From a bacterium (GTDB lineage: Bacteria > Pseudomonadota > Alphaproteobacteria > Sphingomonadales > Sphingomonadaceae), in assembly GCA_030824575.1 (NCBI GenBank), contig JAVBXL010000042.1, forward strand, positions 1 through 64,000: a stretch of DNA of 64,000 nucleotides, written 5' to 3'. The translations under genes were made by a program, and so were the position numbers. The stretch's first letter is position 1. Each line of letters starts with the position of its first letter. Under the pieces are notes generated by a model, which worked only from the letters and a program-made list of their open reading frames with translations, was not told the origin of the DNA and ran no database searches. Positions 26,379 through 45,944 of the stretch are shown here, piece by piece.

Positions 26379-27190
26379 TGCTCCACCTCGATGCGGTAGG
26401 CACCTTCGAGCTTGCGCACTTCCTTCTCGACCAGTGCGCCGGTTTCCGCGGCCAGATAATCCTGGCTCACCTGATCGCGCACATCGGTATAGGGCAGCAT
26501 CGCGGACGGTCCGCGATCGCGGACCCGCGCGAAATGCCAGCCGCGCGTCGACTGGAGCGGCCCGATCCACTGGCCGGTCGGCGCCTTTTTCAGCGCGTCG
26601 GTGAAAGGCTGACCGAACATGCCGCGCACCATCGATTCGCCATAATTCGGCAGGTCGTGGCCCATCCAGAAATCGTCGCCCTTCACCGTGCCGCCAGCAC
26701 GCAGCGTCGCCAGCATCGCGGGCGCATCGGCCGGTTTGCGTTCGAAGAAGACATGGTCGAGCGACATGCGCGGTTCGGCGCGATACAGATCGCGATGGGC
26801 CGCATAATAGCCCATCAACTGATCTTCGCTCGGCTCCGCAGGCGCGCCTGCGATCATGAAGCGGACCCGGTCGATCAGCCGCTGCTTGGTAGTCTTGTCG
26901 GTCATGTGCATGCCCCGCTCCACCGCTTCGCGGAACAGCAGTTCGTCGGCGACATAATCGTGGATCAGCTTGGCCTTGGCCTGCGCATCGGGCCTCTTGC
27001 CCGCCATCATCTCATAATCGTCGGACAGGCTTTTCTGGACCGATAGTGGCACGTCGATCGTCTCGCGACTGGCCGTTACCGCCCAGTAGAGCGCGAAAAT
27101 CGCGCCCGCCACAACCAGGAAGACGATGAACGGATCGCGCGCCGCCAAAGCGCGCAGCGGAGCAGTCAAACGGCGCATCAGCGCGTGCAT
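26375..27190 (-). CDS. Membrane-anchored parvulin-like peptidyl-prolyl isomerase
   Basis: 271 residues. One N-terminal membrane span (residues ~20-40) and a periplasmic body with a SurA/PpiD-like chaperone part (LIHDYVADELLFREAVERG) and a diverged parvulin domain ending in GWHFARVRDRGPS. Probably helps fold the extracytoplasmic domain of its overlapping partner. Start has GAAAGG just upstream. First gene of a three-gene unit. Confidence 0.82.
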   Translation of the reverse strand: MHALMRRLTAPLRALAARDPFIVFLVVAGAIFALYWAVTASRETIDVPLSVQKSLSDDYEMMAGKRPDAQAKAKLIHDYVADELLFREAVERGMHMTDKTTKQRLIDRVRFMIAGAPAEPSEDQLMGYYAAHRDLYRAEPRMSLDHVFFERKPADAPAMLATLRAGGTVKGDDFWMGHDLPNYGESMVRGMFGQPFTDALKKAPTGQWIGPLQSTRGWHFARVRDRGPSAMLPYTDVRDQVSQDYLAAETGALVEKEVRKLEGAYRIEVEQ

Positions 27191-27366
27191 CCTTTCACAC
27201 CCGCCCGATAGAGCGGGCGTTCTTCGCTCAGCTTATGCCGACGCCAACCAGCCGTCCATCTACGTCAAATGACGCATGAGCTTAGCAAGGCAGTTCCGTC
27301 CCAAACCGTTCGGGCTGAGCCTGTCGAAGCCCCTCCCTTCTCAACCTAAGAAAGTGACGATGCCCG
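27191..27366. other. Intergenic region with hairpin and half repeat
   Basis: Contains a perfect 6-bp hairpin (27202-27207 with 27214-27219) just upstream of the parvulin gene and, at 27306-27334, one arm of the CCGTTCG repeat family. The promoter of the minus-strand unit should lie here but no clear -35/-10 is visible. Confidence 0.5.
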
Positions 27367-29550
27367 CTAAGCCAGCATCTCCGCCGTGACCGGCAGGGTA
27401 CGGATGCGCTTGCCGGTCGCGGCATATATGGCATTGACCAGCGCCGGGATCACCGGCGGCAGGGCCGGTTCGCCAAGACCGGTGGGCGGATAATCGGTCT
27501 TCACGAACTCTACGATGATCTGCGGCGCATCGTTGATGCGCAGATAGGGGTGGGTGTCGTAATTGGCCTGTTCCACCGCGCCTGCAACCTGCGTGATCTG
27601 CTGCCCGGCCAGCGCCTGGCTGAGGCCCTCGATCACAGAACCTTGCGCCTGGTGCAGCGCGTTGATCGGGTTGATGATCTGGCTACCGACATCGCCCGCG
27701 ACCCAGACGGCCTTCACCTTGGGCACCCCGTCGACAATCGCCACTTCCACCACTTCGGCGAAATAGCCCATATGGCTGTAATAGAAAGCAAAGCCCTTGC
27801 CCGACCCCTTGGGCAGCGTCTTGCGGTTCGCCCAGTCCCCCATCGCGATCGCCTTTTCGATCACCCCCCTGGCGCGCGCGGTGACGAAGGGCGGCTGGTT
27901 GGGGCCACGCGGCAGTTCCTTCGGGTCGCTGAACAATTCCAGCATCAGCGTGGGCAAATCCTTGCCCGCCGCCTGCGCGACCTCGTCCAGGAAGGCCTGG
28001 GTGACGAACCCCAGCGCGTTGGAGCCGGGCGCACGCAGCCAGCCGGTCGGCATGTTGGTGGCGAGGAAACTCTGCTCCAGCAGGACGTTGTCGATCAGCC
28101 CCGCGGGCAGTTCGCTAGCGGGCATTTCCGCCGATCGGACCGGCTTGCCGTCCTTGCCGAACGTCACGAAATGATCGTGGAAGGCGATGAGCTTGCCGCC
28201 CTTGTCCAGCGCGGCGCGAAAGCCGTGCCAGCCGGCCGGGCGATAGAAATCGCGCTGGATATCCTGCTGCCGGGTCCAGAGCAGCTTGACCGGCACGCCG
28301 GGCAGTTGCGCCGCGATAGACGCCGCCTGCACCATATAATCGTTCATCAGCCGCCGCCCGAAGCCGCCGCCGATGCGGGTGAAGTTGATGCGGATCTTCT
28401 CCGGCGGCAGGTTTAGCGCCTTGGCGACCAGCGCGCGCCCGCTTTCCGGGTTCTGCGTCGGCGCCCAGATTTCCACTGCCCCGTCCTTGAACAAGGCGGT
28501 GCAATTTTGTGGCTCCAGCGTGCCATGCGCGAGGAAGGGATAGTCATAATCGGCCGTCACCGTCTTCACGGCGCTGGCAAAGGCGGCATCGACATCGCCG
28601 ATGCGGACGATATCGGCATTCGCCTTGCCCTTGCGTTTAGCCGCCGCTTGGCGCGCATAGCTTTCGGTCGAAAAGCCGCTAACCGCGCTGACGTCCCAAT
28701 CGATCTTGAGCGCCTCGCGCGCCTGATTGGCGCTCCACCAGCTTTTCGAGAGGATAGCGACGCCCTCGAAACCGGACTCCGGCGTGCCATCGCCCTTGAT
28801 CGTCAGCACATGGGCGACGCCGGGCAGTGCCTTCACCGCGTCCAGATTGGCCGATTTCATGGTACCGCCAAAGGCCGGGCAGGTTTCTAGCACGGCGTAG
28901 AGCATGTTGGGCAGCTTGAAATCGATACCGAACAGCGGCTTGCCCGCGACGATCGCGGGGGTGTCGACGCCGCCGACCGACTGGCCGATGATACGGAAAT
29001 CGGCGGGGTCCGTCAGCTTGAGCGTCGCCGGATCGGGTGCGGGCAGCTTGGCCGCCACCGCGGCGAGCGAGGCATAAGTCGCCGACTTGCCCGATTTGGG
29101 GTCGATGACCTTGCCAGCCGACGTCTTCAGCGTCTCCGGCGCGACGCCCCACCCCTGCGCCGCCGCCGCGACCAGCATCGCCCGCGCCGCCGCGCCCGCC
29201 TGCCGCGTGGGCAGCCATTCGCGCGGCGTCGTGCGGCTGCCGCCCGCGCTCTGGCCGCCGAATATCTTGGCGTCGGCATGGGTCTGCTCGATCGTCACCT
29301 GGCTCCAGTCGACGCCCAGTTCCTCGGCGATCATCATCGGCAACATGGTCTTGGCGCCCTGCCCGATCTCCGCATTCTTCGCGCCAATGATGACGCGATT
29401 GTCGGGCAGGATGCGGATGAAGGCGGTCAGAATCACTGGCGTCCCGTCAGCCGCGCGCGCCACGGGCACATTCAGGTCGAACAGCAACCCGCCGCCCGCC
29501 AGCAGCGAGGCGGAGATGAAGCCCCGGCGCGACAATGTGGCGGCGCTCAT
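27367..29550 (-). CDS. Xanthine-dehydrogenase-family molybdopterin subunit (IorB-like)
   Basis: 727 residues. Tat-type signal [18 protein letters not shown], so it is exported folded with cofactor. Two molybdopterin-binding aldehyde-oxidoreductase domains follow: [16 protein letters not shown] near the N-terminus, [14 protein letters not shown] in the middle, and GLGEPALPP near the C-terminus, whose Glu is the expected catalytic base. Oxidises an aldehyde or N-heterocycle (isoquinoline-1-oxidoreductase-like); the substrate cannot be told. Its start overlaps the 2Fe-2S subunit gene by 4 bp. Confidence 0.92.
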
Positions 29551-30017
29551 GCCTGCGCGTCCTTGATGCCGGCGGCGTCATTGATCGCGGCGCGGATGCG
29601 GACATAGGTGGAACAGCGGCACAGATTGCCTATCATCGCCGCATCGATCTCCTCGTCACTGGGTTTGGGTGTGGTGGCGAGCAAAGCGGTGGCGCTCATG
29701 ATCTGCCCGGCTTGGCAATAGCCGCATTGCGGCACGTCATGCTTCACCCAGGCGGCGGCGATGCGCTTGCCGGGATCGCCCGTCTGCACCCCCTCGATCG
29801 TAGTGATCGCCTTGCCGGCCACATCGCCGATCGGGGTTTGGCAAGATCGCACCGCCTCCCCGCCCACATGGACGGTGCACGCGCCGCACAGCCCCGCGCC
29901 ACAGCCGAACTTGGTGCCGACCATGTCGAGATCCTCGCGCAGCACCCAGAGCAGCGGCTTGGCGCTGTCGCCATCGACCTGCCGTTTTGCACCATTGACC
30001 GTGAAGCTGATCGCCAT
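29547..30017 (-). CDS. 2Fe-2S subunit of the molybdenum hydroxylase (IorA-like)
   Basis: 156 residues from [13 protein letters not shown] at 30017. Plant-ferredoxin-type cluster motif [15 protein letters not shown] plus RSC, then the second cluster [11 protein letters not shown] and GNLCRCSTY. Passes electrons from the molybdenum site to an acceptor, probably a cytochrome, since no FAD subunit is present. No signal peptide of its own; it should ride out with the Tat-exported large subunit. Confidence 0.93.
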
Positions 30018-30077
30018 ATGTCTACCCCGTCTCTTTTGCCGCCAATAGAGGCGCATCTGCACGCTTCTGTCCAGTCG

Positions 30078-30659
30078 TCATGACAGGAGCGCTATGGCGT
30101 CCCCGTTTTCGCGCTCGATCGGGCGCGGCTGGACGTGGACCAGCAGCGCATCAAGCTGCTCGCGCGCCTCCACCACGCCGCGTGCCAGCAGCCGCCCGCG
30201 CGCATCGATCAGCGCAGCGGACGGCCGATCGCCGGACCGGAAGTCCCGCATCACTTCCGCGCCCAGGATGACATCGGTGTCGCGGATATGATGCTGGCGC
30301 AGCATGTCGCCATAGTCCTCCGCCCGCCCTTCGCCCAGGAACAGCAGCCGCAACCGCTTGCGATCCGTGAGCGCCAACGCATCACGGATCGCGGCGCGAC
30401 TGGCGGGGCAATCGGGCCGTATGAACAGCAGCAGCAGCGCGCGCCCGTCCGCGCTAGGCCCGCCGATCGTCAGCATGTCCCCGGCCAGGGTCGGCGCGCT
30501 GACCACCGGGGCCGCGCCGCCGGGACCGGGCAGGCCCGCGCGCTGCGCGATCGGCGTGGCGCGATCCTGCAACTGCCGCAATTGGCGCGCCAGCGCCACC
30601 ACCGCCACGACCAGCAGGATGACGATAATCCACAGAAGAAAGAGAGACGCGATCAGCAC
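30078..30659 (-). CDS. Membrane-anchored thioredoxin-like protein (MauD-like)
   Basis: 193 residues with a GTG start at 30659, chosen because no ATG lies in frame between there and unstructured upstream sequence; the start is uncertain. One N-terminal membrane helix (SLFLLWIIVILLVVAVVALA) then a thioredoxin-like fold (LLLLFIRPDCPASRAAIRD). The redox motif is CPAS, with a single Cys, so it is not a normal dithiol oxidoreductase. Resembles MauD-type accessory proteins. Lies 60 bp upstream of the 2Fe-2S gene on the same strand, hinting at a role in assembling that enzyme. Confidence 0.62.
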   Translation of the reverse strand: MLIASLFLLWIIVILLVVAVVALARQLRQLQDRATPIAQRAGLPGPGGAAPVVSAPTLAGDMLTIGGPSADGRALLLLFIRPDCPASRAAIRDALALTDRKRLRLLFLGEGRAEDYGDMLRQHHIRDTDVILGAEVMRDFRSGDRPSAALIDARGRLLARGVVEAREQLDALLVHVQPRPIERENGDAIALLS

Positions 30660-30734
30660 CAGACGGTCATGCTCATAGATATCGGAACATGGCGCTAACC
30701 CGCCGATCCGCGCCGCTCGATAGGGTGTTTGACG

Positions 30735-30882
30735 TAGGGCCTTGGCCAGGCATCCCGCTATGCCGGACGCAGGGTCGTTCGCAGGATCCTCTTGGGCAGC
30801 GCAAGCCGCCCCGCAGCAAGCGCGCAAAAAACCTCTCCCAACGCGCCTTGCTCCGGCCCGGACTCCCCGTGGGTCCGGGCCG
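30735..30882. other. Highly structured intergenic segment
   Basis: Part of a 328-bp gap without a credible gene. It holds a run of inverted repeats: 30749-30753/30760-30764 (5 bp), 30815-30824/30842-30852 (10 bp with one bulge), and 30855-30862/30874-30881 (8 bp, perfect). This density looks like a non-coding RNA or a dispersed structured repeat; no promoter or terminator settles which strand. Confidence 0.45.
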
Positions 30883-30906
30883 TTGCCCATGGCGCTCGCC
30901 AAAGGC

Positions 30907-30929
30907 TACGTCGTTCACCCCATTGCCGC
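30907..30929. repeat. 23-bp motif shared with the upstream region of the second ureohydrolase
   Basis: Matches 43426-43448 at 22 of 23 positions in the same orientation; the shared core reads TTCACCCCATTGCCGC. It lies 59 bp before the exported ureohydrolase start. Could be a regulatory site or part of a dispersed sphingomonad element. Confidence 0.55.
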
Positions 30930-30987: not shown

Positions 30988-32484
30988 ATGAGGCTGAAAC
31001 ATGCGCTGCTGGGCGCGTTGCTCGCCGCCACGGTGATTTCGTCGGCGACGGTCGTCGCCCAGAATGACAAGCCGACCGTGCCCCCCGCACTGGAAGCCAA
31101 GATCAAGGGTCTGTCCAAGGAAAAGCGCGATTTCCTGACATCCGACCCGGCCGAAATGTTCGCCGGTTCCTATGACAAGCTGTTCGAGCGGCTGGCGACC
31201 AAAAAACCGGAGGAGATCAGCGCCTATATCGAGGCGATGATGGACGCGGTGCAGGCGTCGAAATTCAACGCCAAGACCGACATGGCGGCGATCCCGCTGG
31301 ATACCGAGAACGAGAATTTCAACGGCTGGAAACTGCGCCGGCCCAATGGGCTAGACCCCAAGCGCGAGCCGGGGCCGTTTTCGCTGAGCTATTATGCCCA
31401 TGAGACGGCGGGCGGCGGCGTCTATGGCGGTGGCATCGCGACCTTTGCCGGGGCGCCGGTCGCGATTTTCCCCGAAGATCTGGTCGCGGGCAAGGTGGAC
31501 GTTGCGATCGTGGGCGCGCCGCTGGACATGGGATCGGGCTATCGCGGGGCCAAGGGCGGACCGTCGGCGATGCGGACCCAATATGGTGCGGGCGGCATCG
31601 ACATGTTCACCATGGTCGACCCGTCGAAGGAACTGAAGATCGTCGATTATGGCGACATCGCCGTCGACAATATGAGCACCGACCGCACCGTCGCCCATGT
31701 GCGCGAGCGCGTGGCGGAAATCGCCCGTACTGGCGCCATTCCCTTCATCGTCGGGGGGGACCACAGCCTGGAATATAGCGACGTCGCGGGGATCGCCGAC
31801 GTCCATGGCAAGGGGAGTTTCGGCGTCGTCCATTTCGACAGCCATTATGATGCGGGCAAGGGCGGCGTCCATTTCATCACCCATGGTGCCCCTGTCTATC
31901 GCGCGGTCAAGGAAGGCCATGTGCTGGGCAAAAACTATATCCAGGTGGGCCTGCGCGGCCCTTGGCCCGAAAAGGAGGGCTTCGAATGGATGCGCGACAA
32001 TGGCGTGCGGTACCATGCGATGCCGGAAGTCGAGAAAAATGGCTGGGCCGCGACGATGGAACGCGCGCTGAAGGAAGCGCGGGAGAGCGGCAAGAAACTC
32101 TACGTCTCCTTCGACGTCGATGTGCTGGACCCCGCCTTCATCCCCGGCACCGGCACCCCGGTTCCCGGCGGCCTGACCATGCGGGAAGCGATCCCGATCG
32201 TGCGCCGCCTGTGCGCCGAAAATGACCTTGTCGGTTTCGAGATCGTCGAACTCGCACCAGTGCTGGACCCGACCTATCGCAGCGCGCTCAACGCCAATTT
32301 CATTATGCACGCCTGCCTGACCGGCGTCGCGATGCGCAAGAAAGGCATCCGCCAAGCGGGCTATCTGTCCGACCTGACGACCGAGCACGGCCAGCCCTTT
32401 AATGGCGACAAGGCGGCCAAGGACGGCAAGGCGGAAAAGGTCGACCCCAATTTCGCCCGCGGCGGTCGTCGGCCGACGACTTGA
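30988..32484 (+). CDS. Exported arginase/agmatinase-family ureohydrolase
   Basis: 498 residues from ATG 30988 (AAGGGGG upstream; TTG one codon earlier rejected). Signal peptide ends near VVAQ (residue 25). Residues ~30-165 form an extra Lys/Glu-rich helical part absent from normal agmatinases. The ureohydrolase core follows with all binuclear metal ligands: GGDHS (His259), HFDSHYD (Asp284, His286, Asp288) and SFDVDVLDP (Asp376, Asp378), then PGTGTPVPGGL. It should hydrolyse a guanidino compound, releasing urea, probably in the periplasm. It stands directly before the urease operon on the same strand. Substrate unknown. Confidence 0.88.
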   Translation: MRLKHALLGALLAATVISSATVVAQNDKPTVPPALEAKIKGLSKEKRDFLTSDPAEMFAGSYDKLFERLATKKPEEISAYIEAMMDAVQASKFNAKTDMAAIPLDTENENFNGWKLRRPNGLDPKREPGPFSLSYYAHETAGGGVYGGGIATFAGAPVAIFPEDLVAGKVDVAIVGAPLDMGSGYRGAKGGPSAMRTQYGAGGIDMFTMVDPSKELKIVDYGDIAVDNMSTDRTVAHVRERVAEIARTGAIPFIVGGDHSLEYSDVAGIADVHGKGSFGVVHFDSHYDAGKGGVHFITHGAPVYRAVKEGHVLGKNYIQVGLRGPWPEKEGFEWMRDNGVRYHAMPEVEKNGWAATMERALKEARESGKKLYVSFDVDVLDPAFIPGTGTPVPGGLTMREAIPIVRRLCAENDLVGFEIVELAPVLDPTYRSALNANFIMHACLTGVAMRKKGIRQAGYLSDLTTEHGQPFNGDKAAKDGKAEKVDPNFARGGRRPTT

Positions 32485-32564: not shown

Positions 32565-32592
32565 GCGACATACGTCATATGCCCCATGTCGC
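32565..32592. promoter_or_regulatory. Inverted repeat upstream of ureD
   Basis: GCGACAT (32565-32571) and ATGTCGC (32586-32592), perfect 7-bp arms with a 14-base spacer that itself contains CATATG. It covers the first possible ureD ATG (32586), supporting a later start. Candidate site for a regulator of the urease operon. Confidence 0.4.
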
Positions 32593-32612
32593 GACCTGCC
32601 CGCGCTAACCAC

Positions 32613-33470
32613 ATGTCTTATATGACCGTGCAACGCGCCATCACCGTGCCGCCCAAGTCCCGGCACCAGCGGGTGGACGGGCGCGCCATGGTCGCCTTTT
32701 CGCCCCGCGGCATCCGCGACATGATGCAGGTTGCGCCGGCCCGGCTGCTGTTCCCCGACGGGCGAGAGGGCGATTTCCCCCTCGCCGTCACCGTGACCAC
32801 CAGCGGCGGCCTGACCGGCGGCGACAGGCTGGCGCTCGACATCATCGTCGATCCCGGCGCGGCCGCGACTATCGTCCCGCAGGCGGCCGAGAAGCTCTAC
32901 CGCGCGCTGGACGAGGACGAGCCGACCCGCATCGACACCCGCATCACCATCGGCGCGGGCGCGACCTGCGAATGGCTGGCGCAGGAAGCAATATTGTTCG
33001 ACCGCAGCCGGATGCGCCGGACGCTCGAAGCGAACCTCGCGCCCGACGCGCGCATGCTGGCGATGGAAATGCTGGTGCTGGGCCGAGGCGCGATGGGGGA
33101 AAGCTACACCAGCGGCCTGATCCACGACGCCTGGCGCATCCGCCGCAACGGGCGGCTGGTCTGGGCCGACACGCTCCATGTCGAGGGCGATTTCGCCAGT
33201 CAGGGCCGCGCGCCCTTCGGCTTCGGCGACGCCACCGCCATCGCCACGCTTGTTTATGCCGGGCCGGACGCAGGCGACTATCTCGACCTGGCGCGCAGTC
33301 TGTTCGAAGGACCGGGCAGCGGCGCGACCAGCTTTGACGGACTCCTCATCCTGCGCCTGACCGCCGCCGATCCGCAGGCCCTGCGCAAGGATGTGATGCG
33401 CGCGGCGGGCATATTGCGCGCCGCCATATTCGGACTGTCGCCAACCATGCCAACCATCTGTTACTGCTAG
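32613..33470 (+). CDS. ureD: Urease accessory protein UreD
   Basis: 285 residues from 32613; alternatives at 32586 and 32622 cannot be excluded because no ribosome site is strong. Typical UreD stretches: [15 protein letters not shown], the [16 protein letters not shown] region, and [17 protein letters not shown]. UreD with UreF and UreG forms the GTP-dependent complex that loads nickel into apo-urease. First gene of ureDABCEFG; ureA starts 4 bp after its stop. Confidence 0.93.
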
Positions 33471-33474
33471 GGCC

Positions 33475-33777
<303 letters not shown>

Positions 33778-33803: not shown

Positions 33804-33881
33804 CCGTTCGCCCTGATCCTGTCGAAGGGCTTTTATTGCTCGACGAAGAGAGCAGGGCTTCGGCAGGCTCAGCCCGAACGG
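33804..33881. repeat. CCGTTCG/CGAACGG inverted repeat, copy 4 (ureA-ureB gap)
   Basis: Starts CCGTTCGCCCTGATCCTG, ends GGCTCAGCCCGAACGG. Occupies most of the gap inside the urease operon. Confidence 0.85.
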
Positions 33882-33898
33882 ATGTGGGAGTGGACCAG

Positions 33899-34204
33899 AT
33901 GATCCCCGGCGAAATCATCCCTGCCCCCGGCGACATTCTGCTGAACGCAGGGCGCATGCCCCTTACCCTCACCATCGCCAATAGCGGCGACCGGCCGATC
34001 CAGGTCGGCAGCCATTATCATTTCGCCGAAACCAACCCGGCGCTGCTGTTCGATCGCGACGCGGCGCGCGGCTATCGGCTCGATATCCCGTCGGGCACCG
34101 CCGTCCGCTTCGAGCCGGGCCAGAGCCGCGACGTGCAGCTGATCCCCTATGCCGGCGACCGCATCGTCATCGGCTTCCGCGGCGATGTGATGGGGGCGTT
34201 GTGA
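33899..34204 (+). CDS. ureB: Urease subunit beta
   Basis: 101 residues from [13 protein letters not shown] at 33899, with GGGAG upstream. Contains the family block [20 protein letters not shown] and the C-terminal [15 protein letters not shown] longer frame reading through the repeat is rejected. Second structural subunit of urease. Confidence 0.97.
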
Positions 34205-34331: not shown

Positions 34332-36044
<1,713 letters not shown>

Positions 36045-36070
36045 TGGGCCAGCCGCTCCTCCTTTCTCTT

Positions 36071-36157
36071 GTCATCCCCGCGCAGGCGGGGATCCATCTC
36101 CGACGCTATCCTTCGGTGCGAGGCTGGGAGATGGATTCCCGCCTTCGCGGGAATGAC
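36071..36157. repeat. GTCATCCCCGC-type inverted repeat (ureC-ureE gap)
   Basis: Left arm starts GTCATCCCCGCGCAGGCGGG, right arm ends CGCCTTCGCGGGAATGAC. A different family from the CCGTTCG repeats; its translation gives the familiar spurious peptide ending WIPAFAGMT. Confidence 0.85.
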
Positions 36158-36182
36158 GCGGTTTGTTACGAAAGAAATGCCC

Positions 36183-36680
36183 ATGCTGACCGCCCACACC
36201 GTCATCCCCCACGGCCACTGGTCCGGCCCTGCCGCCGACCATATCATGCTGGACCATGACGCGCGCCACCGCCGCCGCTGGGTCTATACCGCCGACCATG
36301 GCACCATGTTCCTGCTCGACCTCGCCCGCGCGACGGTGCTGGGCCATGGCGACGCGGTGCAACTATCCGATGGTCGCCTGGTCGAAATCCTTGCCGCACC
36401 CGAAGCGCTGGTGGAAGTCACCGCAGCAGACCCGTCCGCGATGATCCGCCTCGCCTGGCATATCGGCAACCGCCACCTGCCCGCCGAACTGCACCCCCAC
36501 GCCATCCGCCTGCGCGACGATCATGTCATCAACGCCATGCTGGAGGGGCTGGGCGCGACCGTGATCAAGATCAACGCCCCCTTCACGCCCGAAGGCGGCG
36601 CTTATTCCGGCGGCGGCCATGATCATGCCCATCATCATCACGATCATTCCCACGACCACCATCACGACCATGCTGGCTGA
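36183..36680 (+). CDS. ureE: Urease accessory protein UreE, nickel chaperone
   Basis: 165 residues from ATG 36183 (GAAAG eight bases upstream; ATG 36177 is a possible alternative). N-terminal UreE domain (VYTADHGTMFLLDLARA), middle metal-binding part with RLAWHIGNRHLPAEL, and a histidine-rich tail with 12 His in the last ~20 residues for nickel storage. Supplies nickel to UreG. Its last 11 bp overlap ureF. Confidence 0.95.
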   Translation: MLTAHTVIPHGHWSGPAADHIMLDHDARHRRRWVYTADHGTMFLLDLARATVLGHGDAVQLSDGRLVEILAAPEALVEVTAADPSAMIRLAWHIGNRHLPAELHPHAIRLRDDHVINAMLEGLGATVIKINAPFTPEGGAYSGGGHDHAHHHHDHSHDHHHDHAG

Positions 36681-37350
36681 CGCCGCCCTCCACCGCTTGC
36701 TGGCCTGGACGTCGCCCTCCTACCCGGTGGGCAGCTTCACCTACAGCCACGGCCTCGAAACCGCGGTCGAGGATGGCCGCGTCCGCACCGCTGCCGATGT
36801 CACCGCCTATGTCGAGGCGGTCCTGGCGCGCGGCGGCGGCTGGGTCGATGCGGTGCTGTTCGTCCAGGCCTATCAGGCCGCATGCGACCCAGCGGCGTTC
36901 GATGCTATCGCCGAACTGGCGGGAGCCTTCCGCGGCAGCAGCGAGACGGCATTGGAGAGCCGGCAACAAGGCGGCTCCTTCCTGTCGGTCACGCGCAAGG
37001 CCTGGCCCCATCCCGCGCTCGATGCTTTTGCGGCGCGTTGGGAAGGGCGTCCGATGGCCCATGCTGTCGTGATGGCGCTGGCCTGCGCTGCGCACGCTAT
37101 TCCGCTCGAACCGGCGCTGCACGGCTGGCTTCATGCCACCGCCGCTAACCTGGTGTCCGCAGGCGTTCGCCTCGTCCCCCTCGGCCAGACCGACGGGCAG
37201 TTGGCGCTCGCCGCCCTCTCCCACGCCATTCCCGCCATCGCAGCCAAGGCGCTGGCCACCCCCCTTGACGATCTGGGCACCGCCGCCCCCGATCTCGAAC
37301 TTGCCTCCCTCGCGCATGAAACCCTCTACACAAGGCTCTTCCGCTCATGA
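36670..37350 (+). CDS. ureF: Urease accessory protein UreF
   Basis: 226 residues from [13 protein letters not shown] at 36670. Shows [21 protein letters not shown] typical of UreF, all helical. Acts with UreD and as an activator of UreG GTPase. Start inside the end of ureE, stop overlapping ureG by 4 bp. Confidence 0.95.
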
Positions 37351-37988
37351 CTTCTCGTAACGGCCCGCTCCGCGTCGGCATTGGCGGCCCGGTCGGCTCC
37401 GGCAAGACCGCGCTGACCGACCGTCTCTGCAAGGCGATGCGCGACCATTATAATATCGCCGCCATCACCAACGACATCTACACCCGCGAGGATGCGGAAT
37501 TTCTCACCCGCTCCGGCGCGCTGGTGCCCGAACGCATCATGGGCGTGGAAACCGGCGGCTGTCCCCATACCGCCATCCGCGAAGATGCCAGCATCAACCT
37601 GGCCGCCGTCGACGAAATGAGCCGCAAATTCCCCGGCCTCGAACTCATCTTCATCGAAAGCGGCGGCGACAATCTGGCCGCCACCTTCAGCCCCGAACTG
37701 GCCGACATCACCATCTATGTCATAGACGTGTCCGCCGGCGACAAAATCCCGCGCAAGGGCGGCCCCGGCATCACAAGGTCCGACCTGCTCCTCATCAACA
37801 AGATCGACCTTGCGCCGTTTGTAGGCGCGGACCTTGGCGTCATGGACCGGGACGCTAGGAAGATGCGGGGGGACCGGCCCTTCCTGTTCACGAACCTCAA
37901 GGACAATATCGGGCTGCCCGCTGTCATCGACTTCATCGTCGCGACCGGCGGCCTGCGCCCTTATCCCGCAGACGCCGCTACGATCTGA
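37347..37988 (+). CDS. ureG: Urease accessory GTPase UreG
   Basis: 213 residues of the SIMIBI GTPase class: P-loop [31 protein letters not shown], the metal-binding [13 protein letters not shown] (CPH motif), [15 protein letters not shown] and the base-recognition INKIDLAP. Drives GTP-dependent nickel insertion. Its TGA shares a base with the start of the permease-kinase gene, so the sensor is translated from the urease transcript. Confidence 0.98.
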
Positions 37989-40900
37989 TGGACCGCGCCG
38001 CCTATGTCCTGCGCGAAAAGCGGCTGTACAATAAGTGGGTCGCCAGCCAGACATTGGAGGATTACGCCCTACGCTACACCGCCGACAGCGCCCGGCGCTG
38101 GTCGGCGGGCCAGGTCGCGAACACCGCCATCGGCGCTACCGCCTTCCTCGCCTGCGAAGCGATCGGCGCGTCCATCACCCTGACCTATGGCTTCGCCAAC
38201 AGCGTCGCCGCGATCGCCGCCGCCGTCGCGCTGATGTTCGTCATCGGCCTGCCCATCGCCTATCATGCCGCCAAGCACGGCCTGGACATCGACCTGCTGA
38301 CGCGCGGCGCGGGCTTCGGTTATCTGGGGTCCACCCTCACCTCGCTGATCTACGCCAGCTTCACTTTCCTGCTCTTCTCGGTCGAAGCGACGATCATGGC
38401 GGTCGCGCTTACCGCCATGACCGGGATGCCGATGAGCCTTGCCTATCTGGCGAGCGCGCTGGTGGTGATCCCCATCGCCCTCTACGGCATGAGCGCCATC
38501 ACCCGGTTCCAGAACGCCACCCAATGGGTCTGGATCGTGCTGCAAGTCGCGCCGATCGCCTATATCCTCTGGTCCGGCCCGGCGGCGCTGGCGCAATGGA
38601 GCCACTTCACCGGACAACTGGGCGCGAAGGACGGCAGCGTCAGCCTGCTCTATTTCGGCTTCGCCCTTTCCACCCTCCTCTCCCTGCTCCCCCAGATCGG
38701 CGAGCAGGCCGACTATCTGCGCTTCCTTCCCAGCGCGAAGACAATCGGCAAAGGCAAATGGTGGGCGGCGATGCTGGCGGGCGGGCCGGGCTGGACGCTG
38801 ATCGGGGGCATGAAGCTGCTGCTGGGGTCATGGCTGGCGCATTTCCTGGTCCAGAGCGCCGCCTTGCAGAGTGAAGCCTCCAGCCCCACCGCCATGTTCC
38901 AGGGCATCTACACCGCCATGTCGGGCCATGCCGGTCTGTCGCTGATCCTGACCGGCCTGTTCGTCATCATCTGCCAATTGAAGATCAACGTCACCAACGC
39001 CTATGCCGGCTCGATCGCCTGGTCCAACTTCTTCGCCCGCCTGACCCACAGCCATCCCGGCCGCGTCGTCTGGCTGGTCTTCAACGTGCTCCTCGCCCTG
39101 CTGCTGATGGAAGTCGGCATTTTCGACGCGATCGAGGCGATCCTGATCCTCTACGCCACAGTCGCGGCGGGCTGGATCGGGGCGCTGGCCGCGGACCTGA
39201 TGATCTCCAAGCCGCTGCGCCTGTCGCCCGCGGGGATCGAATTCAAGCGCGCGCATTTGTTCGACATCAACCCGGTCGGCATCGGCGCGATGCTATTGTC
39301 CATTTCGGTGTCCGCCATCGCCCATTTCGGCCTGATGGGCGATATCGCCCGCGCCTTCGCCCCGGTCATCGGCATGGCGGTCGCCTTCACCAGCGCGCCG
39401 GTCATCGCGCTCATCACCCATGGCCGCTATTATATCGCGCGCCAGTCGCACTGGCCCGAAGGCAGCGATATAAAGACCTGCATCATCTGCGAAAACGCCT
39501 TCCAGCATGCCGACATGGCGCATTGCCCCATGTATGCCGCGCCGATCTGCTCGCTCTGCTGCACGCTGGAGGCGCGCTGCCATGATCGGTGCAAGAGCGA
39601 CAGCCGCGCAACACAACAGGCCGCCCGCTGGCTGGAGCGGCTGCTCCCCCGCGCCGTGGCCGACTATGTCCACACCCCGGTCGGCCATTTCATCGCCGTC
39701 ATGAGTATCATCACCCTGGCCAATGGCGCGCTGATGGGCGGGATCGGCTGGCAGGTGGCGCGGCGCGCGCCGTCCTTCGCGGCCCAGACGTCCAGCCTGA
39801 TGCTGGGCCTCTTCCTGCTGTTCTCGCTGCTGGGCGGGGTGATCGCCTGGATGATCGTCCTCGCCCACCAAAGCCGCCGGTCGGCGATGCAGGAAAGCGA
39901 GCATCATGTGCAAAAGCTGATGGAAGAAGTGATCGCCCATGATGTGACCGGCGCGGAACTGCAACGCGCCAAGGAAGCCGCCGAGGCCGCCAACGCCGCC
40001 AAGAGCCGCTATCTCGTCAGCGTCAGCCATGAAATCCGTTCGCCGCTCAACAGCATCTATGGCTATGCCCAGCTGATGGAGCGCGGCCATGAGATCGCCC
40101 CGATCGAAGCGGCCAAGGTGATCCGCCGCAGCGCCGAACATCTGACCAATCTGGTCGAAGGGCTGATGGACATCAGCCAGGTCGAAAGCGGCGTTCTGCG
40201 CATCAGCAGCGAAACCGTGCGCCTGTCCCCCTTCGTCGACCAGATCGCCAATATGTTCCGGCCGCAGGCGCAGTCCAAGGGGATCGACTTTTTCTACGAG
40301 CGGCCCGAAAAACTGCCCGATTTCGTCCGCACCGATCAAAAACGCCTGCGCCAGATCCTCATCAACCTCCTGTCCAACGCGATCAAGTTCACGCGCAGCG
40401 GGTCGGTCACCTTCCGCGTTCAGTATCGCAGCCAGATGGCGACGTTCGACATCATCGACACCGGCATCGGCATCGCGCCCGATGATGTGAAGCGCATCTT
40501 CGATCCGTTCGAACGCGGCTCCAACCCCGATGCGCAAAAACAGAAGGGAATTGGCCTCGGCCTCGCCATCACCCAGGCGTTGGTGCAGATATTGGGCGGC
40601 GACCTGTCGGTGGTCAGCACCGCGGAAAAGGGCACGCAATTCACGGTGCGGCTGATGCTCGGCCATGTCGCGGGTGTCGCCGACAGCCCGCCGGTCGAAA
40701 CGATCAAAGGCTATGAAGGTGACCGGCGCAAGATTTTGCTAATCGACGATGACGCCGTCCAGGTGGCGGTGCTGCGCGGCTTGCTGGAGCCGCTCGACTT
40801 CATCGTGTTCGAAGCGCTGAACGGCGCTGCCGGCATGGAGATCGCCGCGCGCGAACAGCCCGACATCGTCCTGCTCGACATATCGATGCCCGGCGAATCG

Positions 40901-41344
40901 GGCTGGGACATATGCCGGGCGCTGCGCGAAACGCTGGGCGGCGCGGTCCGCATCGTCATGGTGTCGGCCAACGCCCATGAATTTCATCGCGGCGGCGACG
41001 GTCGTGCGGCGCATGACATGTTCCTGATGAAGCCGGTCGATCTCGACGCGCTGCTCGATGCGATCGCCGACCAGTTGCGCATCCGCTGGACCGGCGATCT
41101 GCTGCCCGCGCCGCCGCCCGCGATCGAGGACGAGGCCATGCCGCCCCTGCCGGAAGAAGCTGGCCCGATCCTCGCCGATATCGAGCAGAAGGCGATCATC
41201 GGCCATGTCCGCGGTATCGAATCCAGCATCCGCGCGCTGGAGGAAGCCGTGCCCGACGCCGCCCCGCTCACCCGACGCCTCCTCGCCCATCTCGACCGTT
41301 TCGACCTCAAGGGGCTGATCAGAACCATAAGGGCCGCCCGATGA
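37988..41344 (+). CDS. NCS1-type permease fused to hybrid histidine kinase (transporter-sensor)
   Basis: 1118 residues. Residues ~40-480: about 12 membrane helices resembling NCS1 cytosine/purine/allantoin permeases (VANTAIGATAFLACEAIGAS near the N-terminus). Residues 498-535: eight cysteines (498, 501, 513, 521, 524, 525, 531, 535), a probable metal site. Two more membrane helices at ~560-625, then a coiled linker, a HisKA domain with His681 in SVSHEIRSPLNS, an ATPase domain (LLSNAIKFTRSG, GIGLGLAI), and a receiver domain with Asp964 in DIVLLDISMPG. A C-terminal tail of ~130 residues follows. Likely a ligand-transporting or ligand-sensing kinase for urea or a related compound. Overlaps ureG and the LuxR regulator gene. 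Confidence 0.88.
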   Translation: MDRAAYVLREKRLYNKWVASQTLEDYALRYTADSARRWSAGQVANTAIGATAFLACEAIGASITLTYGFANSVAAIAAAVALMFVIGLPIAYHAAKHGLDIDLLTRGAGFGYLGSTLTSLIYASFTFLLFSVEATIMAVALTAMTGMPMSLAYLASALVVIPIALYGMSAITRFQNATQWVWIVLQVAPIAYILWSGPAALAQWSHFTGQLGAKDGSVSLLYFGFALSTLLSLLPQIGEQADYLRFLPSAKTIGKGKWWAAMLAGGPGWTLIGGMKLLLGSWLAHFLVQSAALQSEASSPTAMFQGIYTAMSGHAGLSLILTGLFVIICQLKINVTNAYAGSIAWSNFFARLTHSHPGRVVWLVFNVLLALLLMEVGIFDAIEAILILYATVAAGWIGALAADLMISKPLRLSPAGIEFKRAHLFDINPVGIGAMLLSISVSAIAHFGLMGDIARAFAPVIGMAVAFTSAPVIALITHGRYYIARQSHWPEGSDIKTCIICENAFQHADMAHCPMYAAPICSLCCTLEARCHDRCKSDSRATQQAARWLERLLPRAVADYVHTPVGHFIAVMSIITLANGALMGGIGWQVARRAPSFAAQTSSLMLGLFLLFSLLGGVIAWMIVLAHQSRRSAMQESEHHVQKLMEEVIAHDVTGAELQRAKEAAEAANAAKSRYLVSVSHEIRSPLNSIYGYAQLMERGHEIAPIEAAKVIRRSAEHLTNLVEGLMDISQVESGVLRISSETVRLSPFVDQIANMFRPQAQSKGIDFFYERPEKLPDFVRTDQKRLRQILINLLSNAIKFTRSGSVTFRVQYRSQMATFDIIDTGIGIAPDDVKRIFDPFERGSNPDAQKQKGIGLGLAITQALVQILGGDLSVVSTAEKGTQFTVRLMLGHVAGVADSPPVETIKGYEGDRRKILLIDDDAVQVAVLRGLLEPLDFIVFEALNGAAGMEIAAREQPDIVLLDISMPGESGWDICRALRETLGGAVRIVMVSANAHEFHRGGDGRAAHDMFLMKPVDLDALLDAIADQLRIRWTGDLLPAPPPAIEDEAMPPLPEEAGPILADIEQKAIIGHVRGIESSIRALEEAVPDAAPLTRRLLAHLDRFDLKGLIRTIRAAR

Positions 41345-42261
41345 CCACGCCTTCCCACACCGATACCGTCCTCGTCGTGGACGACACGCCCGAATCCCTG
41401 CGATTCCTGACCGACACGCTGGAAGCGGCCAACATCTCCGTCCTGATCGCCACCAGCGGCGACGCGGCGATTGAATTGCTGGACCATGTCGCCCCCGACC
41501 TCATCCTGATGGACGCGGTGATGCCGGGACTGGACGGGTTCGAAACGACCCGCGCGATCAAGCAGATGCCCGCCGGCGCGCCGATCCCGATCATCTTCAT
41601 GACCGGCCTCACCGAAAGCGAGCATGTCGTCCATGCGCTGGAGGCAGGCGGGGTCGACTATGTGCGCAAGCCGATCGTGGTCGAGGAGTTGCTGGCCCGC
41701 GTGCGCGTCCATATGGCCAATGCGCGCCAGACCCAGGGCGGCCAGTTCGCGCTCGACGCCACCGGACGCAATTTGATCGCGGTGACGACGGACGGACGAT
41801 TAAGCTGGAGCACGCCTGGCGCGGAAAAATTGATGGAAGCGCTGGCACCCGGCTGGTCGCGAGGCGACGCTGCGCCGCCGGCTTTGTTGCGCAACGCGGT
41901 CGGACGGCTGCTGGGCGACGATCTGGCCGCCGGTGCCACGGCCAAGGCGGACAGCGGACAGGGCGACACGGTCGAACTCGTCATCGTCGGCCGCCCCCGC
42001 CGCGACGAAATATTGATCCGCCTCAACCATATCGATCCGCTCGCCGATATCGGCCGGCTGCAAAGCCATTTCAGCCTGACCCAGCGCGAGGCCGAAGTGC
42101 TGCTATGGATCAGCTATGGCAAGCCCAACCGCGTCATCAGCGAGATACTGGTCATCAGCCCGCGCACCGTGAACAAGCATCTGGAACAGATTTTCGAGAA
42201 ACTGGGCGTAGAAACGCGCGCCGCGGCGGCGGCCTTTGCGGTGCGGGTCATCGCGCACTGA
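41341..42261 (+). CDS. LuxR-family response regulator
   Basis: 306 residues. Receiver domain with Asp58 in DLILMDAVMPG and Lys in YVRKPIVVEE; a ~100-residue middle of unclear fold; C-terminal LuxR helix-turn-helix (LTQREAEVLLWISYGKPNRVI then SPRTVNKHLEQIFEKLGV). ATGA overlap with the permease-kinase gene makes it the cognate regulator. The operator candidates before ureD and before the ureohydrolase genes are natural targets to test. Confidence 0.92.
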   Translation: MTTPSHTDTVLVVDDTPESLRFLTDTLEAANISVLIATSGDAAIELLDHVAPDLILMDAVMPGLDGFETTRAIKQMPAGAPIPIIFMTGLTESEHVVHALEAGGVDYVRKPIVVEELLARVRVHMANARQTQGGQFALDATGRNLIAVTTDGRLSWSTPGAEKLMEALAPGWSRGDAAPPALLRNAVGRLLGDDLAAGATAKADSGQGDTVELVIVGRPRRDEILIRLNHIDPLADIGRLQSHFSLTQREAEVLLWISYGKPNRVISEILVISPRTVNKHLEQIFEKLGVETRAAAAAFAVRVIAH

Positions 42262-43425: not shown

Positions 43426-43448
43426 TACGTCCTTCACCCCATTGCCGC
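43426..43448. repeat. Second copy of the 23-bp motif, before the cytoplasmic ureohydrolase
   Basis: 22 of 23 bases equal 30907-30929. It lies in the 109-bp divergent gap between the Ldh-family and ureohydrolase genes, 29 bp before the latter's ATG. Confidence 0.55.
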
Positions 43449-43476: not shown

Positions 43477-44520
43477 ATGGCCCATGATCCGATCGACCTT
43501 GACGAACTCCGCCGCCTCTATGCTGGGGGCGGCGGGGCCGACATTCACGATCCCCATTTCCGCGAAGTGGCGGGACTGCAATTCAAGAGCGGGGACAAGC
43601 GCCGTTGGCCTTTCGCCCAGCCCTCCACGCTGCTGGATGCGCCCTATATCGCGGGCGGTCTGACGCCGGAAACGCTCGACACGCTTGATGTCGCGCTGAT
43701 CGGCGTGCCGATGGACTTGGGCGTCACCAACCGCCCCGGCGCGCGCTATGGCCCTCGCGCGGTGCGGGCGATCGACCGGATCGGCCCCTATGAGCATCAA
43801 CTGCGCGTCGCACCGATGAACGCGCTCAAGGTCGCGGATGTGGGCGATGTCCCAATGCAAAGCCGCTATGACCTCTCGCTCTGCCACGCCGACATCGAAG
43901 AATGTTATGCGATGATCGGCGCGACCCGCGCGATCCCGCTGTCGGTCGGCGGCGACCATAGCATCACCGGGTCGATCATGAAGGGACTTGCGGCCGCCAG
44001 AGGCCCGATGGGCATGGTCCATTTCGACGCCCATTGCGATACCGGCGGCATCTATGAAGGATCGAAATTCCACCATGGCGCACCGTTTCGCGAAGCCGTG
44101 CTGGCGGGCGTGCTGGACCCCAAGCGATCGATCCAGATCGGCATCCGGGGCGGCGCGGAATATCTGTGGGAATTTTCCTACGCCAGCGGCATGACCGTGA
44201 TCCATGCCGAAGACTGCGCGGCCATGGGCATGGACGCGGTGGTGGCAAAAGCGCTGGAGGTCGTCGGCGACGGCCCGACCTATGTGACATTCGACGTCGA
44301 TGGCCTCGACCCGGTCTACGCGCCCGGCACCGGCACGCCCGAAATCGGTGGCCTGTCGACGCGCGAGGCGCTGCACCTGCTGCGCGGGCTGGCGGGCATC
44401 GACATTATCGGCGGCGACGTGGTGGAGGTCGCGCCCGAATATGATCCGACCACGGTGACGGCGCAGGCCGCCGCGCAGATGCTGTTCCAGCTTCTCTGCC
44501 TGGTGCAGCTGCGCCGATGA
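43477..44520 (+). CDS. Cytoplasmic ureohydrolase (agmatinase/guanidinobutyrase type)
   Basis: 347 residues from MAHDPIDLDELRRL; no signal peptide. Complete metal site: His161 (VGGDHS), Asp184/His186/Asp188 (HFDAHCD), Asp273/Asp275 (TFDVDGLDP), then APGTGTPEIGGLS. General layout and the RPGARYGPRAVR and VEVAPEYDPT blocks resemble agmatinase SpeB and guanidinobutyrase GbuA. Hydrolyses a guanidino compound to urea plus an amine. The start overlaps nothing upstream; its stop overlaps the APC permease start by 4 bp, so uptake and hydrolysis are coupled. Exact substrate unknown. Confidence 0.9.
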   Translation: MAHDPIDLDELRRLYAGGGGADIHDPHFREVAGLQFKSGDKRRWPFAQPSTLLDAPYIAGGLTPETLDTLDVALIGVPMDLGVTNRPGARYGPRAVRAIDRIGPYEHQLRVAPMNALKVADVGDVPMQSRYDLSLCHADIEECYAMIGATRAIPLSVGGDHSITGSIMKGLAAARGPMGMVHFDAHCDTGGIYEGSKFHHGAPFREAVLAGVLDPKRSIQIGIRGGAEYLWEFSYASGMTVIHAEDCAAMGMDAVVAKALEVVGDGPTYVTFDVDGLDPVYAPGTGTPEIGGLSTREALHLLRGLAGIDIIGGDVVEVAPEYDPTTVTAQAAAQMLFQLLCLVQLRR

Positions 44521-45944
44521 GCACGCCGACCGCTTCAACATCCGAACCGGCGCTGAAGCGCGGCATCACCGGGCCGGGCTATTTCGCGCTCGCCTTCGGC
44601 ACGATCGTCGGGTCCGCCTGGATGGTGCTGATGGGCGAATGGGTCGCGCCCGCGGGACCGGGCGGCGCGGTGCTGGCGTTCCTTGGCATGACGCTGCTAA
44701 TGGTGCCGATCTCCGCCGCCTATGCCGAACTGGTCGCCCGTGTGCCGCGCGCAGGTGCAGAGTTTGTGTTCGTAGAAAAGGCGTTCGGGCCATGGCCGGG
44801 CTTCGTCACCGGCTGGTATCTGACCCTCTATTTCGTCGGGATCGCCGCGTTCGAGGGGCTGGCCCTCTCCTGGTTTCTCGAAAATCTGGTGCCGTCGCTG
44901 AGCGGGCAGACCCCACTCTACACGCTGCTCGGTCGGCCGATCACGGCAATGGACCTGATCGTCGGGCTGGCGGGGGCCGGCGTCATGACCCTGCTCAACG
45001 CATCGGGCGCGACCATCGCGGTGGGCTTTCAAAAGATCGTGACCTTCGCCTTCCTCGCCGCCTCTGCGGCGCTGGTGCTGCTTGGCTTTGCGCAGGGCGA
45101 TACGAACAACTGGCAACCCCTGTTCGAATCGGCGCAGGATCGCAGTTTCGGCGGCGGCATGTTCGTCATGCTGGGCGTGGCGGGCATGTGGCTGGCGGGG
45201 TTCCAGACCGCCGCGTCGGCGGTCGAGGAACGGGCGCCTGGCACCAGCTTCCATACCGTCGCGCGGGCCATGATGGCGGCGGTGGCGGTCGCGGCGTTAT
45301 TCTACAGCCTCATCATCCTGGCATCGGCATCGCTGGCGCCGTGGCGCGACCTGACGTCGGGCGCGCTGCCGGTCGCCGCCGCCTTCGACCATGCGCTCGC
45401 CGGCGGCCTGGCTACAAAGGGGATCATCCTGGTCGCCATGGCGTCCCTGCTCAAGACCTGGAACGCGATGCACCTGTCGGCGACGCGCGTCATCCTGGCG
45501 CAGGCCCGCGCCGGATTCCTGCCCGCCGGCCTCGCCCATATCGACGCGCGCACCGGCGCGCCGCGCCGCGCCGCGCTGCTGGTGGGGCTGTGGACCTGCC
45601 TTGGCGTGCTGGCCGGGCGCGGCGCGATCAGCCCGATCATTTCGATGGGGACGATGTGCACTACGGCCATCGCCGCGGTTGCAATGCTGGCGCTGCTGCG
45701 CCTGCGCAGCCGGGACAGGGGCGCTGCCCCGCCCGCTTTCGTGCTGGCGGGGGGCAAGCCGTTGCTGCTCGCGATCAGCATCGGTGCCGCCGTGGTGGCG
45801 AGCGCCGCCATCGCCACGCCCTTCGGCGTCAACGACGGGATGCCGGTCGAAATCTGGCTGATGCTGGGCTGGCTGGCGCTGGGTGGCGGAATGGTGATGG
45901 CGCAGCGTTTGCTGATCGCAACGCCAACGGCGCAAACGGCTTAA
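44517..45944 (+). CDS. APC-family amino acid/guanidino-compound permease
   Basis: 475 residues with about 12 membrane segments from residue ~20. Typical APC opening [18 protein letters not shown] and the conserved helix-3 region [22 protein letters not shown]. Inner-membrane importer. Operonic with the ureohydrolase (ATGA overlap), so its cargo is probably that enzyme's substrate. Ends by overlapping the convergent rnhB gene by 4 bp. Confidence 0.9.

Follow-up and report, generated by a model that had tools for sequence, protein, structure and literature searches.

A transporter-like membrane kinase encoded after the urease genes of a sphingomonad is probably a sensor of urea or a small amide

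What does a histidine kinase with a permease-like half sense when its gene continues a urease gene series? The question is raised by a 64,000-nucleotide stretch of Sphingomonadaceae DNA (contig JAVBXL010000042.1, positions 1-64,000, forward strand; assembly GCA_030824575.1), referred to here as the window, in which a single intact frame with an ATG start (37988-41344, + strand) encodes an 1118-residue hybrid histidine kinase with a predicted NCS1-type transceptor domain. Because such kinases lie beside urea genes in many bacteria and share a DNA motif with them, we consider this transporter-like membrane kinase to be probably a sensor of urea or a small amide. The fuller reading, to which we give a probability of about 0.7, is that a urea/small-amide transceptor hybrid kinase controls urea supply through an operator and is itself encoded within the urease gene series.

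An earlier note on this DNA had described one reading frame of 1118 residues with a permease-like part, a cysteine cluster, a histidine kinase and a receiver, and the intact frame and its Pfam domains bear this out. The computed domain order, all on the + strand, is a 12-helix NCS1/CodB-like domain (residues ~24-486; 38057-39445) that is not recognised by Pfam and was identified by an AlphaFold model and Foldseek; an 8-cysteine module (C498-C535; 39479-39592), placed by alignment and model in a small element of strands and helix that follows the last helix of the permease; an extra two-helix hairpin into the kinase helix (residues ~564-625; 39677-39862), from the model and hydropathy; the Pfam domains HisKA (672-735, with H681) and HATPase_c (782-891), together at 40001-40660; and a hybrid receiver (Response_reg, 916-1026, with D964; 40733-41065). 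The adjoining gene (41341-42261, +) encodes a 306-residue REC-LuxR(GerE) response regulator, with Pfam matches to Response_reg at residues 10-122, including D58, and to GerE at 245-300. The kinase N-box and G-box motifs are present and the phospho-acceptors H681, D964 (hybrid receiver) and D58 (regulator) are in place, so that the protein has the HisKA, HATPase_c and REC domains of a hybrid kinase, and its gene is followed by one for a REC-GerE regulator. The kinase start overlaps the ureG stop (TGATG at 37986-37990) and the regulator gene overlaps the kinase end (ATGA at 41341-41344), both as described before. The sensor tail C-terminal of the receiver gave no Pfam match; the simplest route would therefore be that H681 passes the phosphoryl group directly to the separately encoded regulator while the fused receiver acts as a modulator. 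The fusion is not an accident of assembly, as a kinase-part match is also found at all 80 loci of the best-80 relatives set described below.

The permease half is present in 11 of 298 same-family genomes, the window's own included, and a profile search found it in 27 of 385 same-class genomes (two of these being a fragment and a chance-level match) and in 59 of 398 sampled Pseudomonadota genomes, with 52 matches near full length (own genome included) and seven genomes giving weak matches only. Scanning of a contig collection gave at least 589 confirmed relatives, from which the best 80 were kept for locus analysis; the nearest relative among the matches listed is that of Sphingobium psychrophilum, at 99% identity. 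The sensor domain is present in 56 (L156-L211) of 60 regions fetched from the phylum sample; the other four (L212-L215) hold distant standalone permeases and were excluded from the locus counts, L213-L215 having no match to the window domain at the cut-off. The locus sets overlap, with L017/L052 and L018/L064 coming from the same genomes and L023 being nearly the window itself.

Either urt, ure or fmdA lies nearby at 54 of the 56 phylum-sample loci (48 urt, 13 ure, 37 fmdA), the two misses sitting on pieces of 11.3 kb and 4.8 kb, and urea or amide genes, fmdA counted, are within ~10 kb at 68 of the best-80 and nine of the 10 same-family loci; for rough comparison, the calculated chance of such a match is ~1% for 20 kb drawn at random from a 5 Mb genome that has two urea loci. 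A regulator match, drawn beside the kinase, was found at 54/56 phylum-sample, 75/80 best-80 and 10/10 same-family loci. Homologs mostly away from nitrogen genes, the pattern that the earlier note named as damaging to its proposal, are thus not what the survey gives. The commonest layout is fmdB-fmdA-urtE-urtD-urtC-urtB-urtA, divergent from the kinase and regulator genes, and sphingomonads and some other groups pair the kinase with urease; the idea that all relatives adjoin urease was accordingly rejected. The description of the pair as hard-wired to urease holds in the window but not in general, since most loci seen pair with divergent urtABCDE-fmdAB, and the broader proposal of a transporter-sensor tied to urea supply is supported by this synteny and by the shared operator-like site described below, although its urease tie is local. 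A FastTree phylogeny of 146 aligned rows has at least five switches between fmd and ure partners among 117 labelled rows, and partner choice, as read from this tree, is therefore clade-bound yet has changed several times. At two loci (L208 and L209) the same permease half and cysteine module are carried on a kinase without a receiver, beside fmdA-fmdB, giving a different output to the same sensor. Several kinase genomes hold two urtA genes, the higher-scoring one elsewhere and the lower-scoring one beside the kinase and fmdAB, which suggests that the kinase-linked Urt is a specialised amide/urea importer paralogue.

These partner sets also bear on the ligand. With the same architecture and regulon, the sensor could respond not to urea itself but to formamide or short-chain amides in the urt-fmdAB lineages, or to a urea-yielding guanidino or ureide compound in the window lineage, an alternative that we regard as possible though somewhat unlikely. 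Compounds of the ureide type are among the ligands of NCS1 proteins, fmdA lies close to the kinase gene at 37/56 phylum-sample and 49/80 best-80 loci, the second, higher-scoring urtA elsewhere in several kinase genomes (20 fetched) leaves room for the linked Urt to import amides, and sites in the window's own genome lie beside five arginase-family genes and a TonB-receptor-like gene. Urea is, however, the common denominator of both partner sets, urease being found in some clades and urt in most, and the candidate ligand-site residues Q236, Q240, N334, N337 and T126 are unchanged in 146/146 rows despite the five or more changes of partner label. Taken on its own, the proposal that the ligand is urea has slightly better than even odds.

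The second line of support for a sensor of urea or a small amide is a DNA motif. The first three sites were seen by eye before the first ureohydrolase gene, ureD and the second ureohydrolase gene of the window, and a pattern made from these same sites gave three matches against 0.05 expected. The candidate operator is the 17-mer TACGTCNNNNRMCBYAT, a degraded form of the inverted repeat TACGTCAWWTGACGTA, formulated after the aligned sites had been seen; variants of the repeat include TACGTCAAATGCCCCATTGTTGC in a Rhodobiaceae metagenome-assembled genome, close to TACGTCGTTCACCCCATTGCCGC of the window. Its left half, TACGTC, is common to the window sites and the urtA-kinase regions. In the 147 loci studied, 95 intergenic regions between divergent urtA and kinase genes are 50-1500 bases long; TACGTC is their top hexamer and occurs in 82 of them, as compared to 16.6 from letter shuffles and 10.1 in random pieces of equal length taken from those loci; the 17-mer is in 38 of the 95 regions as compared to 0.75 in such pieces. 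When one region per genus is taken, the counts against same-length random pieces are 28/32 versus 3.7 for TACGTC and 20/32 versus 0.4 for the 17-mer. Across the 147 loci (2.83 Mb) the 17-mer has 97 matches and the reversed pattern two.

The motif also tracks the kinase rather than urtA. In the phylum sample, the 17-mer is present in 14/38 kinase-adjacent urtA promoters but in 0/40 chosen urtA promoters of kinase-less genomes and 0/20 chosen distal urtA promoters of kinase genomes, even though the control stretches are longer than the kinase-adjacent ones (mean 801 versus 463 bases); the corresponding counts for TACGTC are 30/38, 9/40 and 2/20. One-sided Fisher tests of the 38 against the 40 give p = 9e-6 for the 17-mer and 5e-7 for TACGTC, with related genomes among them not being independent. 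TACGTC as a general urt promoter element was rejected on these controls. Where a site lies between urtA and the kinase pair, it could act on urtA, on the pair or on both. It is conceivable that the operator belongs to another regulator and that the kinase pair merely travels with urea genes, given that the link between motif and regulator is statistical only, that some urtA-kinase regions are without the motif and that urease-linked loci outside the sphingomonads have none before urease; the empty kinase-less and distal promoters make this very unlikely in our view. The motif, new here, is a candidate operator shared by the sensor and urea genes.

In the window itself, one site (TACGTCATATGCCCCAT, 32571-32587, +) precedes ureD, the first gene of a urease cluster that is complete as the earlier note had claimed. 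This comprises, all on the + strand, ureD (32586-33470; Pfam match from residue 69, so that the true start is probably downstream of the first ATG), ureA (gamma subunit, 33475-33777), ureB (beta, 33836-34204; NCBIfam, profile match from residue 22), ureC (alpha, 34332-36044; PF00449), ureE (36069-36680), ureF (36619-37350) and ureG (37347-37988), with ureD, A, E, F and G assigned by Pfam. Two further sites precede genes of arginase-family ureohydrolases, the first (TACGTCGTTCACCCCAT, 30907-30923, +) before the gene at 30988-32484 (+) and the second (TACGTCCTTCACCCCAT, 43426-43442, +) before the gene at 43477-44520 (+; ATG at 43477), which is overlapped by an amino-acid-type permease gene (44517-45944, +; Pfam). 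The fourth (TACGTCAAATGACGCAT, 27261-27277, +) lies before minus-strand genes for a rotamase (PPIC-type) and HupE/UreJ (25374-27190, -), which are putative regulon members, and the fifth (TACGTCAAACACCCTAT, 30720-30736, -) is on the side of minus-strand [2Fe-2S]- and molybdopterin-subunit genes. The sites at 30720 and 30907 thus lie between molybdenum-hydroxylase-type genes and the first ureohydrolase gene. The operator to -10-like distances in three window promoters, as judged by eye, are 34, 37 and 42 bases, and a constant spacing was not found and the idea dropped.

The window's genome has 10 sites in 4.94 Mb, five of them in the window, and two matches to the reversed pattern. On a second contig (C48) one site starts 209 bp upstream of where the genome's only UrtA match begins, and two separate a TonB-receptor-like gene from a run of three arginase-family genes (L238:9435-13742); the genome bin has an estimated contamination of 8.9%, and C48 is likely, not proven, to be from the same organism. 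The remaining two sites, on C71 and C148, are without explanation. The window locus recurs in S. psychrophilum (L023), with four sites letter-identical to those of the window, and among the 10 same-family loci a site is found before ureD, a ureohydrolase gene or urtA at seven (L013-L018, L020). As an operator-like site is shared by ureD, the ureohydrolase genes and urtA, it is plausible that the regulator controls urease and that feedback runs through the urease gene series.

Several observations weigh against a urea-sensing kinase acting through this operator. The first motif was picked by eye in the window before tests were made elsewhere, and the strict 17-mer is missing in 12 of the 32 genera with a divergent urtA-kinase pair, four of which are without TACGTC too. 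Twelve loci from outside the sphingomonad group with urease as the partner carry no 17-mer before it (L091, L094, L097, L186, L195, L196, L201, L203, L204, L205, L207 and L211), clades which may use another operator. In the same-family set, the only sites at L019 and L021 are at other positions and L022 has none, and Bradyrhizobium-type sites keep TACGTC with a different right half. With sites missing or divergent in several groups, the 17-mer as a sequence pattern describes only part of the family, the window lineage included. As for gene neighbourhoods, 12 of the best-80 loci and one of the 10 same-family loci have no urea gene in reach; eight of the 12 are on pieces shorter than 12.6 kb (L027, L035, L055, L056, L063, L077, L080 and L089), and no urea or amide genes were found in the ~22 kb at each of L026, L040, L073 and L093, nor in the 19.9 kb at the same-family locus L021. 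Finally, formamidase accompanies urt at most loci, and the true ligand there may be formamide or other amides. The Bradyrhizobium loci (for example L031 and L041-L045) have at the urtA-kinase site a conserved extension of their own, TTTTGCGGTGCA-TATACGC.

What kind of domain does the sensing? The permease half has no usable Pfam or NCBIfam match, the weak matches all being below cut-offs, and the sensor has no SLC5/SSS Pfam match. PF02133 was not listed for residues 1-501 at E values up to 10, a range in which HMMER filters drop most matches above ~0.1, and likewise was not listed for two homologues (L073 and L058). In a PDB sequence search with the protein, the best 60 of 194 matches are all in the kinase or receiver, and a search with the family profile gave seven zinc-finger matches only, at E 0.76 and worse. 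We built an AlphaFold model of the membrane half from 59 sequences (pLDDT 81, pTM 0.82), in which a by-eye count gives twelve main helices up to residue 476, followed by a strand-rich element at 495-527 (strands at 495-521) of modest confidence, with blocks of pLDDT ~60-77, a helix at 564-593 and a long helix from 595 towards the kinase. Foldseek comparison with the PDB places CodB and Mhp1 chains, both NCS1, at ranks 1-5, with TM-scores by target length of 0.76 and 0.79 for CodB; NCS1 structures outrank SSS structures, and structures of the plant urea transporter DUR3 are at ranks 12, 17 and 18.

Intermediate sequences connect the domain to the same family. The family profile finds a standalone 497-residue permease (L212) at E 1.2e-44, which itself passes PF02133 with 36.4 bits against a cut-off of 23.5, and this PF02133 type is a candidate for the ancestral transporter. 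No other standalone relative in the phylum sample scores as high against the sensor domain, and the genome that encodes it (G845:C40) also has the kinase. With intermediates in the profile, hhalign reaches Escherichia coli CodB at E 2e-16 over 370 columns; without them there are local matches only, of 147 and 144 columns with probabilities of 54% and 29%. From the link to PF02133 through standalone intermediates and the CodB/Mhp1 fold of the model, we conclude that the membrane half is a remote NCS1 branch. The earlier description of an NCS1-like permease therefore stands for the predicted fold and the intermediate sequences, but not for membership of the sequence family as defined by PF02133.

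Alignment to the CodB profile is of low identity and was used for broad residue correspondences only. According to the available text of the CodB paper, the Na2 residues are Thr278 and Thr279, the substrate is sandwiched by Trp108 and Phe204, and there is a conserved Arg216-Tyr285 pair. In our 146-row alignment, for which loci were read by strand and L080 was left out for a stop codon, the pair aligns with R245/Y339 (146/146 rows), and Thr278/Thr279 in TM8 align with K332/I333, kept in 145 and 144 of the 146 rows, a placement that may be off by one residue. Trp108 aligns with residue 129, which is F in 117 and L in 29 rows and L in the window protein, and Phe204 with F225, close to an 8-residue insertion. 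Near the predicted TM6 break Q236 (146/146), E239 (145/146) and Q240 (146/146) are conserved, as are N334 and N337 in TM8 and T126 (each 146/146), and the invariant QxGEQ stretch near the break is an insertion relative to CodB in this alignment. Q236, E239, Q240, N334 and N337 are candidate ligand residues from this pattern of conservation. The cysteine cluster of the earlier note is real: the eight cysteines (498, 501, 513, 521, 524, 525, 531 and 535) are present in all 146 rows, 143 of which are different. If the domain keeps the NCS1 topology with both ends inside, the module would be cytosolic, and by analogy it would stand where STAC sits under the transporter in CbrA.

A transporter-like fold raises the possibility that the permease half is mainly a working transporter, with the kinase reading flux or an internal state, such as nitrogen status or, through the eight cysteines, metal or redox, and not urea occupancy. 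The fold itself, the alignment of the CodB Arg216-Tyr285 pair with an invariant R245/Y339 and the invariant cysteine module are all in keeping with this, and the available text of PMC7918813 describes transport of histidine by the SLC5 half of CbrA. K332-I333 at the position of the Na2 threonines makes Na+ coupling unlikely, although it is still compatible with proton coupling as in CbrA, which is without Na2 residues and stimulated by a proton gradient (PMC7918813, available part). Dedicated urt importers, however, accompany the sensor at most loci, and there is almost no variation in the TM6 break and TM8, as would be expected of a single-ligand receptor. We consider this possibility as a whole unlikely, and favor the transceptor interpretation.

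From these observations we infer the ligand, the direction of the signal, DNA binding by the regulator and activation as opposed to repression, as follows. The NCS1/CodB-like domain would bind urea or a closely similar small amide, and the ligand-bound conformation would be relayed through the 8-cysteine module and helical hairpin to the kinase, which would phosphorylate the LuxR-type regulator encoded next door. The phosphorylated regulator would then bind the inverted repeat before urea supply genes and switch on those yielding urea (ureohydrolases), importing it (urtABCDE) and splitting it (urease). The ends of ureG, the kinase gene and the regulator gene overlap in that order downstream of the ureD site, and switching on the urease genes would therefore increase the sensor as well, a positive feedback; a promoter inside the ure genes may exist, which would bear on this feedback. 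The first ureohydrolase has a signal-peptide-like N-terminus as judged by eye, and is possibly periplasmic. The molybdopterin- and [2Fe-2S]-subunit genes (27367-30736, -) are behind the operator-like site at 30720, and the intervening open reading frame (30078-30902) gave no Pfam match at E 0.001.

Few nitrogen sources and fertilisers are as common as urea. To our knowledge, how most environmental bacteria sense it is poorly known. A membrane receptor that is widespread and comes with a candidate operator would offer a testable answer and a means to predict urea and amide regulons, and it would add a further transporter fold to SLC5 and Amt as folds that have come to control kinases. More tentatively, and with the odds somewhat against it, NCS1-fold kinases with an 8-cysteine module in place of STAC could be a third kind of transceptor kinase and the main urea/small-amide receptor in many Pseudomonadota, with one operator in the window lineage for an outer-membrane receptor, secreted ureohydrolases, the urt importer, HupE/UreJ and urease. 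Through its cysteines the module might also check for metal, and so limit urease production to when maturation is possible.

Classical urea regulators are cytosolic, and UreR, which provides urea-responsive control of urease, is a one-component AraC-type activator; the system described here is a membrane two-component system. With CodB (cytosine) and Mhp1 (hydantoin) the sensor has in common the predicted fold and the conserved Arg-Tyr pair, but it is fused to a kinase, is without a PF02133 match, does not, in the alignment, conserve the Na2 threonines and has the QxGEQ insertion. A neighbourhood of this kind, with genes for a hybrid kinase and a LuxR-family regulator at a second urtABCDE operon, is reported for Ectopseudomonas guguanensis G3 as annotation only, the available part of PMC13296017 mentioning no transporter domain, operator or kinase function. 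Our literature search, which covered open-access papers and little of the subscription literature, found no functional study of an NCS1-type transporter-kinase among the papers listed. As the earlier note said, transporter-kinase fusions as such are already known; they include fusions with SLC5/STAC and with Amt domains. The Amt-type ammonium sensor kinase of Kuenenia (PMC5764959, available part) is similarly a nitrogen-compound transporter fold fused to a histidine kinase, but with an Amt fold where we find NCS1, and a different ligand. Close parallels are the SLC5/STAC kinases CbrA/CbrB (histidine) and CrbS(MxtR)/CrbR (acetate), in which a LeuT-fold transporter domain is likewise fused to a histidine kinase. 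The available text of PMC13022988 places STAC under the transporter in CbrA and a lysine within its Na2 site, to which K332 may be equivalent. The membrane domain here is NCS1/CodB-like, not SLC5, and an 8-cysteine module and hairpin lie between transporter and kinase; general Pfam scans of the sensor gave no STAC or PAS match, the STAC model not having been searched by name. CrbS is, like the window sensor, a hybrid kinase paired with a LuxR-family regulator and an imperfect inverted repeat before uptake and use genes (PMC5715377, available part), but in place of ACTU sites such as TACTACCATCGTCGAAT the candidate operator here is TACGTCA..TGACGTA.

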